Assembly (NCBI RefSeq): GCF_013623775.1
Contig: NZ_JABFAM010000010.1
Location: forward strand, 1 to 64,000
Direction of reading: 5' to 3'
Source: Rufibacter sp. XAAS-G3-1
GTDB taxonomy: Bacteria > Bacteroidota > Bacteroidia > Cytophagales > Hymenobacteraceae
DNA length: 64,000 bases
Notes under the pieces: model-generated
What the model saw: the letters and a program-made list of their open reading frames with translations, nothing else
The model's database searches: none
What the model was told of the DNA's origin: nothing
Shown: piece by piece, positions 3,625 through 62,433 of the stretch
Numbering within the stretch: position 1 is the stretch's first letter
How the letters are laid out: every line of letters starts with the position of its first letter
Program-made: the position numbers and the translations under genes

Positions 3625-4566
3625 CTAATCCTCCAGCGAGGCTAAATACCGCTCGGCATCCAGGGCAGCCATACAACCGGTACCCGCGGCGGTCACCGCC
3701 TGGCGGTACACGTTGTCCTGCACATCGCCGCAGGCAAATACCCCGTCAACGTTTGTTTTAGACGTACCCGGAATGGTTTTGAGATAGCCGCTTTCATCAT
3801 GCTCCAGGTAAGGCTGGAAGATTTTGGAGTTGGGCTCATGCCCAATAGCCACAAAGAAGCCATTCACGGCAATGTCTCTGGTCTCGCCGGTGGCGGTATC
3901 TTTGATGCGGGCTCCTTCCACCCCGTGCTCCCCCAGGATTTCCTCGGTCACGCTGTTCCAGAGAATCTCAATGTTGGGCGTGTGCTTCACGCGGTTCTGC
4001 ATGATGGTGGACGCCCGCATTTCATTTCGGCGTACAATCATGTACACCTTGGAGCACAGGTTGGAGAGATAATGCGCCTCTTCGCAGGCGGTGTCACCGG
4101 CGCCCACAATGGCTACGTCCTGGCCGCGGTAAAAAAATCCGTCGCACACGGCGCAGGCAGAAACCCCGCTGCCGTTCAACCTTGATTCTGACTCCAGTCC
4201 CAGCCATTTGGCCGAAGCTCCGGTGGCGATGATCACGGTATCGGCTTCAATTTCTTTCTGCTCGTCAATGGTCACTTTGTGCGGCTTACCGGAGAAATCT
4301 ACCGAAGTAGCAATGCCATAGCGAATATCGGTGCCGAATTTAGCGGCCTGCTGACGGAAGTCTTCCATCATCTGCGGGCCATTTATGCCGGAAGGATACC
4401 CGGGGTAATTTTCAACGTCGTTGGTAATGGTCAACTGACCACCGGGCTGTAAGCCTTGGTACATGACCGGTTTTAAACCGGCACGTGAGGCGTAAATGGC
4501 GGCAGTATATCCGGCCGGGCCGGAACCTATGATCAAACACTTTACGCGCTCCTTTTGGTTTTCCAT
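3625..4566 (-). CDS. trxB: Thioredoxin-disulfide reductase
   Basis: A 313-aa FAD/NADPH flavoenzyme that reduces thioredoxin in the cytoplasm. The FAD-binding GSGPAG motif is at residues 14-19, the redox-active CAVC pair at 138-141 and the NADPH-binding GAGDTA at 155-160; the C-terminal FAD motif GVFACGDV is present. Length and domain order match low-molecular-weight bacterial TrxB. It is transcribed on the minus strand behind a 580-bp repeat-rich gap, with a hairpin after the stop, so it probably forms a single-gene unit. A TAATATTG sequence upstream is close to the Bacteroidota -7 box. Confidence 0.96.
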   Translation of the reverse strand: MENQKERVKCLIIGSGPAGYTAAIYASRAGLKPVMYQGLQPGGQLTITNDVENYPGYPSGINGPQMMEDFRQQAAKFGTDIRYGIATSVDFSGKPHKVTIDEQKEIEADTVIIATGASAKWLGLESESRLNGSGVSACAVCDGFFYRGQDVAIVGAGDTACEEAHYLSNLCSKVYMIVRRNEMRASTIMQNRVKHTPNIEILWNSVTEEILGEHGVEGARIKDTATGETRDIAVNGFFVAIGHEPNSKIFQPYLEHDESGYLKTIPGTSKTNVDGVFACGDVQDNVYRQAVTAAGTGCMAALDAERYLASLED

Positions 4567-4900
4567 ATCAGGTAATAATTTGGGAGTGCAATATTACGAA
4601 TTATTTTAAAGACAGCGGCAGAGGTACCCATTGCCTGTTCCTGCAAATAAAAGTTATCCAATAGGCTACTTTGAAAAAAAGGCCTATATGCCTAGAAAGA
4701 AAACTTATGGCCTCTGCTAAATAGAACAAAATAGAGGAAGGAAGAATTCTCTGAGGCCGGAACAATCTTTAGACAAGGAGTACGGCCGGTGGTTTAAAAC
4801 GGCATTTCTGTTTTAAGCCTGTTTTGTTAAAAAGGGCTCTAAAACAGAATCATACCAGCCCTTCCGCAGAAAGCCTCACCCTAGCTTCTCTCCAGTAGAG

Positions 4901-21977: not shown

Positions 21978-22211
21978 ACCTGCAAGCTTCTGCTACTTTC
22001 CCCGGTTCCAGTCTTCCCCGAGCGCGCCTCGCTTTTGGCCATAGATAAACTTCAGCTAAGAGAGACATACCTCTCAGGCCGAAAGGGCAGTGCGAGAGGG
22101 GAAGACTGGAACCGGGGCCGTGAGCGCTTCCCAGCAAAGATGGAACAATACAGCACTTGCACCCACGCAAAAAGCGGACATGCCAGGGGAACAGCGCAAT
22201 ACGCGCATTCA
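21978..22211 (+). repeat. Structured repeat, family R, copy 1
   Basis: A 20-bp perfect outer stem pairs 22000-22019 with 22098-22117 (CCCCGGTTCC... with ...GGAACCGGGG). Inside are CTCGC/GCGAG pairing, a CC-GAAA-GG tetraloop-like hairpin and a variable loop with CTAAGAG. Downstream are GCCGTGAGCGCTT and one CACCCACGCAA module. The blocks GAGCGCGCCTCGC and GGCCGAAAGGGCAGTGCGAG are identical in the copies at 40481 and 61948. Confidence 0.75.
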
Positions 22212-23689: not shown

Positions 23690-23755
23690 GCAGAAGCAGG
23701 AGTCATCAGCCTTCACAGAAGGCGACTTTATACTGGTGGTACCCCATCACCTTCA
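23690..23755 (-). promoter_or_regulatory. Fluoride riboswitch (crcB motif)
   Basis: Read on the minus strand: hairpin GGTG-ATGGGGTAC-CACC, an ATAAA-containing linker, hairpin GCCTTC-TGT-GAAGGC, then TGATGACTCCTGC. The first loop GGGGT can pair with ACTCC, giving the pseudoknotted fold of the crcB aptamer, and the TGATGACTCCT block is its best-conserved part. It starts a few bases after a TACATTTG -7 box and ends about 50 bases before the CLC-F start codon. No T-run follows, so control is probably at translation initiation. Confidence 0.87.
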
Positions 23756-23760
23756 CAAAG

Positions 23761-40433: not shown

Positions 40434-40480
<47 letters not shown>

Positions 40481-40841
40481 GCGCCTTAGAAGGAAATGCT
40501 GCCTTGTCTCTACAAATACTTTCCCCCGTTCCAGTCTTCCCCGAGCGCGCCTCGCTTTTGGCCATAGACAAACACCAACTAAGAGCAATAGACAGTTCAG
40601 GCCGAAAGGGCAGTGCGAGAGGGGAAAACGGGCCCCCGCGGCCGTGAGCGCTTACCGCCAAAGATGAAACAACAAAGTATTTGCACCCACGCAAGAAGCA
40701 GACAAGCCAAGGGAACAGCAAAGGGCATGCACCTGCTAATACCCACGCAAAAAGCAGAAAAGCCAGGGGAACACCGTAAGGCGTGCACAAACTAATCTCC
40801 CCACAGAAGCCAGATCCAAGCAGATGCAAAACGCAGAAACT
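40481..40841 (+). repeat. Structured repeat, family R, copy 2
   Basis: It shares a left flank GCGCCTTAGAAGGAAATG with copy 3, the conserved core blocks GAGCGCGCCTCGC and GGCCGAAAGGGCAGTGCGAG, and GCGGCCGTGAGCGCTTACCG. Two tandem modules begin ACCCACGCAA at 40685 and 40741 (56-nt period), each with AGCCA(A/G)GGGAACA and a GCATGCAC/GCGTGCAC end. The outer stem is shorter and less perfect than in copy 1. A minus-strand open frame of 162 codons covers it; I do not think it is coding. Confidence 0.78.
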
Positions 40842-61947: not shown

Positions 61948-62433
61948 GCGCCTTGGAAGGAGATGGTGGAGCGCCAGAACCCACCCTTACTCCTCCAAGA
62001 GGGGAATACGCCTTCGCCGGGGATTACATTTTTGGAAAGATAGGAATGCGTGGCAGTGACAAGGCAGTACCTAGTCTCTACAGGTTCTATCATCACCACT
62101 ATTGCTACTTCTTCCAGTTCCAGTCTTCCCCGAGCGCGCCTCGCTTTTGGCCCTGAACAGACACCAACTAAGAGCGAATATCTTCTCAGGCCGAAAGGGC
62201 AGTGCGAGAGGGGAAGACGGGGCCCCGCGGCCGTGAGCGCATACCGCCAAAGATGAAACAATACAGTACTTGCACCCACGCAAAAGCAGCCATGCCAAGG
62301 GAACAGCAAAAGGCGTGCACCCACCAATACCCACGCAAAAGCGGGCAAGCCAAGACAACACCGTAAGGCGGGCCCCACCAATCTCCCTAATGAAGCCAGC
62401 CCCGGGCAAAAGCCAAAGTGCAGAAAGAAACCG
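61948..62433 (+). repeat. Structured repeat, family R, copy 3
   Basis: It shares GCGCCTTGGAAGGAGATG at the left, the invariant core blocks at about 62123-62143 and 62189-62216, the GCGGCCGTGAGCGC box, and two modules starting ACCCACGCAA at 62274 and 62329 (55-nt period). A CTCCTCCAAGAGGGG-type insertion near 61990 makes it longer than copy 2. Overlapping minus-strand frames exist but are not conserved in extent. Confidence 0.75.

Follow-up and report, generated by a model that had tools for sequence, protein, structure and literature searches.

A dispersed element with a conserved, pseudoknotted fold in Rufibacter and related Cytophagales

Three loci in a 64,000-nt stretch of the genome of Rufibacter sp. 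XAAS-G3-1 (the window) carry an element, here called R, that occurs in a few to ~150 copies per genome in three genera of its family. Compensatory changes keep the fold of R intact on one strand, and the family combines partly shared sites with genome-wise homogeneity and a reassortment of apical hairpins as units. We propose, at a probability of roughly 0.6, that R is an interspersed structured-RNA element of Cytophagales that spreads non-autonomously and whose copies exchange short tracts by gene conversion. Copy number, breadth across genera and exchange between copies all lay beyond the reach of the original prediction, which had been made from the window.

Results

The three copies lie at 22005, 40528 and 62117, all on the + strand, as found by direct reading and by covariance-model matches, which bears out the earlier claim of an element common to three loci. 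Two blocks, GTTCCAGTCTTCCCCGAGCGCGCCTCGCTTTTGGCC and CAGGCCGAAAGGGCAGTGCGAGAGGGGAA, are identical across copies 1, 2 and 3, as had also been claimed. The structured core of copy 3 (62117-62275) has the top model score among the window copies, 173.2 bits. Within it, covariation identifies the P1 5′ strand (62123-62131, pairing with 62210-62218), the P2 5′ strand (GCGC, 62136-62139, pairing with GUGC at 62202-62205) and the P4 hairpin GGCC-CCGC-GGCC (62221-62232), whose loop CGC (62226-62228) forms a pseudoknot with GCG at 62237-62239. The 3′ pseudoknot strand lies inside a GTGAGCGC box placed by alignment (62233-62240), and comparison of copies delimits the interchangeable apical domain P3 (62140-62201). 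The core of copy 2 (40528-40686, read directly and matched by the model) has P1 at 40534-40542 with 40621-40629, and one P1 and one P4 pair are broken.

The model match of copy 1 (22005-22162) contains an apical domain of type A (GGCC...CTAAGAG...GGCCGAAAGGGC; 22028-22089). It lies between the arms of a perfect 20-bp inverted repeat, the left one read directly at 22000-22019 (P1 5′ strand, 22011-22019) and the right one at 22098-22117 (P1 3′ strand, 22098-22106). The perfect outer stem that the original prediction described in copy 1 is real, and is a property of that copy. Copy 1 also lacks the P4 hairpin, which is present in copies 2 and 3 and in nearly all aligned relatives; its right arm matches the left arm and not the family P4 sequence, and the copy is therefore a perfect palindrome from 22000 to 22117. 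This looks like a quasipalindrome correction, and may hint at a hairpin formed in the cell's DNA. The predicted CC-GAAA-GG hairpin is present, but it is part of one among several apical domains that can replace each other, and not of the family core.

The CTAAGAG motif, the GGCCGTGAGCGC box (read directly in copy 1 at 22116-22127) and the modules starting with ACCCACGCAA are all found as described. Copy 1 has a single 3′ module (22161-22211, read directly and by module-start count), and the same count gives two modules in copy 2 (40685-40795, starts at 40685 and 40741) and two in copy 3 (62274-62384, starts at 62274 and 62329), spaced by 56 and 55 nt. These five module starts compare with 0.16 expected in the window, and none of 100 shuffles reached five. 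On the + strand all three copies fold better than shuffles, with z-scores of -6.6, -2.1 and -2.9 for copies 1, 2 and 3; the - strand gives -3.1, +0.6 and -2.2. A covariance-model scan of the window found no fourth copy, its only additional match being a weak antisense one to copy 1 (E 7.7e-4); as the training sequences of this model include copies 1-3, it recovers these by construction.

Far from being limited to three copies, as first described, R has 148 matches to one core pattern and 140 to another in the XAAS-G3-1 genome, and 0 to the reversed patterns. BLAST of copy 1 in this genome gave at least 42 matches (40 of 168 candidates scored). The pattern with 148 matches was found in 45 of 120 family genomes, with 14-75 copies in each of the other 15 Rufibacter and up to 114 in group g3; its reversed form has 0 matches in all 16 Rufibacter and two stray ones in the 120-genome set, both in R-free genomes. 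The covariance-model search of this genome and its relatives that had been suggested with the original prediction was run with model R1, built from 41 copies including the three of the window, and gave matches in 57 of the 120 family genomes, that is, 16 of 16 Rufibacter plus groups g3 and g4, which, judging from the genera of the family, are probably Pontibacter and Adhaeribacter, respectively. When 30 of these g3 and g4 genomes were searched again, every one matched, with from 1 to at least 99 copies, five g3 genomes having at least 99. Neither the core pattern nor R1 had any match in the genera g2, g5 and g6 of this set.

A second model, R2, built from 79 sequences, found R in R. sediminis alone among 80 named bshC loci. 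Over the order Cytophagales it matched 15 of 291 genomes, five of them outside the family with 1-3 matches each at E 0.01, and over the class 3 of 395 at E 1e-4, all inside the order; absences in these scans are weak statements, because filters were strict and only 7-24 candidates were scored per genome. With plain DNA BLAST, copy 1 had matches in 15 of the 59 genomes searched (the own one plus 58 relatives), all of them Rufibacter; G008, in which R1 finds R, was missed. BLAST of phage and plasmid collections yielded no R copy; one viral-contig match, located among unrelated GC-rich ORFs, was put down to chance similarity over 20 bases. Three g16 genomes have one R-like element each (L361, L362, L363) in the same syntenic stretch, with 88-92% DNA identity, where it precedes a gene that by eye is Gfo/Idh-like; these single elements possibly represent an ancestral low-copy state.

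The core fold consists of P1 (9 bp), P2 (4 bp), a swappable apical hairpin P3, P4 (4 bp) and a 3-bp pseudoknot in which the P4 loop pairs with the downstream GCG of GAGCGC. In alignment A4 (79 sequences, three of the 82 matches of A3 having been left out, one of them the antisense of copy 1), 97.4% of 1572 cells are paired, compared with 83.3% in shuffles, and the covariation score was reached by none of 500 shuffles. Two-sided changes occur in 14 of 20 base pairs across these 79 sequences, which share history, so that the counts are not independent events. Sliding the partner strands out of register lowers pairing to 37-48%. The model used for this alignment already contained P1, P2 and P4, which biases the alignment in their favor; it did not contain the pseudoknot. 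In the pseudoknot, the middle pair (224-237) is GC in 62 of the 79 sequences, UA in 6, CG in 5, unpaired in 1 and gapped in 5, and the outer pair fails to form in 9.

G-U cells far outnumber A-C cells, by 82 to 9 in A4 and by 64 to 6 in the first alignment (alignment A1 excludes two copies from relatives, as their 5′ end was not found), and therefore the given strand is the one that folds, as RNA or as single-stranded DNA. The pseudoknot together with the G-U excess favors RNA as the acting form, and we infer that RNA rather than single-stranded DNA is at work. Several unpaired bases are kept in at least 95% of the A4 rows (A6, G18, C26-U27, G216, G233, A235 and A261), and in distant Cytophagales the letters of P1 are strongly different while most pairs still form. 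Between the P2 strands, the apical domain takes the form of several dissimilar helices, depending on the copy. In 98 copies of the own genome, constraint is concentrated in the core and divergence is uneven, core conservation being partly ascertained because these copies (of ~148) were found mostly by core patterns. The view that R is RNA structure and not coding sequence is thus strongly supported, by two-sided pair changes in P1, P2, P4 and the pseudoknot, by the G-U excess and by the lack of a common reading frame. Many copies diverging evenly with no covariation had been named as the outcome that would speak against it; copies are indeed many, but their divergence is uneven and covariation is present. 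A coding repeat was rejected, since the downstream modules carry one-base indels, read by eye, and have no common frame.

R shows no sharp edge: beyond the core, conservation is lost gradually amid other repeats, and the R spacers that were read are mosaics of such repeats. 5′ of copy 2 (40436-40478) and of other R loci, this mosaic often includes TTGATTGA tandem runs and CCCCTCCGAGGAGGGGAATACGCC modules. By ORF-based gene calls, the ORFs on either side of the 98 own copies are convergent in 47 cases, co-directional in 41 (23 ++ and 18 --), divergent in 7 and incomplete in 3. Nine consecutive + copies on contig C71 had suggested a replication-linked DNA site, which was rejected: 121 copies in three complete genomes, with dnaA taken as the origin, show no detectable replication-orientation bias (65 co-directional vs 56 head-on), and the gap CV is 0.88-1.29. 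At two loci, L124 and L066 (905-1053 and 1500-1655), two R copies lie close together in opposite orientation.

Flanks were compared for 174 sampled copies of 16 genomes. Both flanks are syntenic in 34 pairs (28 in the same orientation, 6 flipped) and one flank in 9 further pairs (5 same, 4 flipped). Orthology pairs are not independent and were also counted per site: the 34 both-flank pairs represent 48 copies at 20 sites, of which 15 have the same orientation only, 3 include a flip and 2 are doublets. Flipped copies at 3 of the 20 sites show that some shared sites were re-occupied or inverted, and preferred insertion sites may also exist. A same-orientation counterpart exists somewhere for 12 of 21 sampled copies of genome G005, and the samples of G005 (21) and G002 (23) have six sites in common; among the 98 own copies, counterparts exist for only 4 of the 21 and 2 of the 23. 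The rimO-bshC spacer (genes named by NCBIfam) has R in the own genome and in R. sediminis, an inverted R in G006 and none in R. roseus, these spacers being too diverged for precise joints. For bshC, the nearest relatives with a name are those of R. sediminis and R. immobilis. The suggestion that R is a mobile element is partly supported, by the varying occupancy of this spacer and by copy numbers of 14-148 among congeners. An exactly empty site that carries a target duplication was not observed.

Copies at shared sites are more like the other copies of their own genome than like their positional counterparts. Over the 28 same-orientation pairs, identity is 0.665 for counterparts, 0.653 for non-counterparts between species and 0.746 for paralogs of the same genome, and in 33 of 40 comparisons, which are not independent, a copy is closer to its median paralog than to its positional counterpart. 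Four of the seven exceptions come from one site (L126/L063/L229), whose counterparts stayed alike, and homogenization is therefore incomplete. At some shared sites the apical type differs between species (L074 vs L064 and L282; L084 vs L275).

Linkage between variable positions falls to background with distance. In the own genome (98 copies, 32 two-allele sites), mean r2 is 0.32 at 1-2 bp, 0.19 at 3-5 and 0.10 at 6-11, and beyond 12 bp it is 0.012-0.025, compared with a 1/n of 0.010; none of 1000 position permutations matched this decay, though the low linkage could come partly from recurrent mutation at saturated sites. In the g3 genome G140 (the 61 best-scoring of at least 99 copies), mean r2 drops from 0.14-0.17 at 12-49 bp to 0.031 at 50-99 bp, and more distant sites give 0.016-0.020. 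Here, one block comprises 16 apical-domain sites; it was scored in 57 of the 61 copies, and its minor form is found in 18 of the 57. Between this block and 50 outside sites, mean r2 is 0.016 (maximum 0.083), with a permutation mean of 0.020, and because the block is unlinked to the outside sites, two multi-site apical helices reassort on one background. Recurrent mutation does not easily produce such reassortment, and had master copies merely transposed, the result would be linked subfamilies.

Rfam 15 returned three tRNAs and one fluoride riboswitch in the window, none of them on R; the riboswitch (- strand, 23690-23760; 41 bits, above gathering) lies ~1.5 kb from copy 1. In E-value mode copy 3 gave four matches at E 1.7-4.8, far below gathering, and 11 relatives' loci searched to E 0.5 gave three sub-threshold matches, none on R. 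At gathering, 19 and then 20 further loci (3 of the 20 repeated from the 11-locus set) gave 0 matches. A group II intron was rejected as an explanation: a single sub-threshold domain V signal falls outside R, and the 39 loci, L380 included, have 0 matches at gathering. This signal (L380, 1-75; 32.8 bits against a gathering score of 40) sits at a contig edge of a distant Cytophagales genome, where an R-like element follows ~70 nt to its 3′ side, and is best taken as a lead.

Discussion

In the explanation that we favor, tract exchange within a non-autonomously spreading RNA element, the functional part would be a pseudoknotted RNA of ~125 nt, made up of P1, P2, an interchangeable P3, and P4 with its pseudoknot, followed by a 3′ tail with AUGAAACAA. 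The element would spread as a passenger, its RNA fold being recognized by a protein encoded elsewhere, and dispersed copies would swap short tracts via homologous gene conversion, for which the invariant P1 and P4 blocks may provide the homology. Conversion of this kind would keep each genome's set alike and let new apical hairpins spread through occupied sites.

To our knowledge, bacterial interspersed repeats are mostly short palindromes or decayed MITEs. In the R family, the RNA fold with its pseudoknot is well supported, copies number up to ~150 per genome, and sites are partly kept across species while the sequence is renewed and the apical hairpin is swapped as a cassette. The concerted evolution of a dispersed bacterial non-coding family is directly measurable here in a culturable genus, and the family points to a protein that may bind a new class of RNA. 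Chromosome rearrangements may also be concentrated at R copies, if sequence exchange between them is this free.

A possible but clearly less probable explanation is a multi-copy family of host non-coding RNA genes, with copies kept for dosage like those of rRNA or tRNA. Strong structural constraint, invariant unpaired bases and sites common to several species agree with it, as does the concentration of constraint in the core of the 98 own copies (partly ascertained by the search patterns). A copy number that ranges from 14 to 148 inside one genus is difficult to reconcile with dosage, however, as is the lack of any match in the family genera g2, g5 and g6; moreover, a non-systematic inspection of loci revealed no conserved promoter upstream.

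We regard as doubtful a bacterial analogue of SINEs, a pseudoknotted non-coding RNA that a reverse transcriptase (or an enzyme of that kind) acting in trans would copy through an RNA intermediate, with template switching between copies. If true, one step would explain RNA-strand selection, dispersal and in-place replacement at old sites, together with linkage that is lost within tens of bases and apical cassettes that are freely exchanged.

Slightly less probable still is a REP-type single-stranded DNA element, moved by a Y1/RAYT transposase that recognizes the hairpin. R is a large imperfect palindrome in intergenic positions, Y1_Tnp (PF01797) has matches in 15 of 16 Rufibacter genomes, and the one Y1 match of the own genome is a REP-associated tyrosine transposase by NCBIfam. 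Yet G007 has 26 R copies and 0 Y1_Tnp matches at E 0.001, and model R2 finds no R at 16 loci around 13 RAYT-like genes, that of the own genome included; a motif scan of these 16 loci gave a single match with 4 mismatches (in L131), which we read as chance. The Y1/RAYT search of the 16 Rufibacter genomes revealed no autonomous partner. The balance of replication orientations (65 vs 56) also argues against this mechanism, and a pseudoknot is unusual for REP-type DNA hairpins.

A cis-acting 3′-UTR or terminator element of neighboring genes would fit the 47 of 98 own copies that lie between convergent ORFs, but is improbable given that the same spacer can hold flipped copies and that orientation is balanced in co-directional spacers (23 vs 18), from which we conclude that the RNA strand is not tied to a host transcript. 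A dead repeat, spread once from a few masters and decaying neutrally, would suit the mosaic intergenic setting and the scarcity of copies between divergent genes (7 of 98), but is hardly credible in view of the uneven divergence, the compensatory changes between genera, which contradict neutral decay, and the absence of subfamily linkage across the element.

We found no description of such an element for Rufibacter, Pontibacter or Hymenobacteraceae in the open-licence literature. BOX elements are short, intergenic and present in many copies, some with transcribed RNA structures. Integron attC is a folded site with a hypervariable tip, which R may resemble; attC sites have R and L boxes and form cassette arrays with an integrase. 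The sampled R copies are dispersed. Six of the eight Bacteroidetes rows inspected in the motif table of PMC2864571 carry Rfam numbers, and Rfam gave nothing on R. The bcr1-bcr18 families of the Bacillus cereus group are, in the passages of PMC3446304 that introduce them, intergenic repeats of which some are MITE-like and others show an RNA secondary structure that is conserved; in the strains studied, roughly half of the copies are transcribed. R is likewise an interspersed intergenic family; it differs in phylum and, as far as that description goes, in its pseudoknot, interchangeable apical hairpins and argued shuffling. RUP, Correia and similar small non-autonomous elements are, like R, short, intergenic and present in many copies, some with transcribed RNA structures according to the portion of PMC2229807 concerned with them; in R, an unsystematic look revealed neither terminal inverted repeats nor target duplication, and its fold is compensated across genera. 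The betaproteobacterial bprJ, as outlined in part of PMC3110155, is a repeat of ~90 bp with many copies and mobile-element features that was found through a small RNA; it belongs to another phylum, and the likeness is one of description.

REPs are, like R, palindromic repeats in spacers, but measure 20-40 bp by the summary in PMC3733652, whereas R has a core of ~125 nt with a pseudoknot, and the 16 loci around RAYT-like genes gave no link to a RAYT gene. The GTAG tag of REPs is absent from the R core consensus. In the own genome, the Y1 gene at L137 (contig C3, 3907-4473) lies between inverted copies of another repeat (3745-3810 and 4585-4645), of a GTAGG...CTACGAGGTCTTTTGAG type that also occurs in several of the spacers read and that is perhaps the REP family of the own-genome RAYT.
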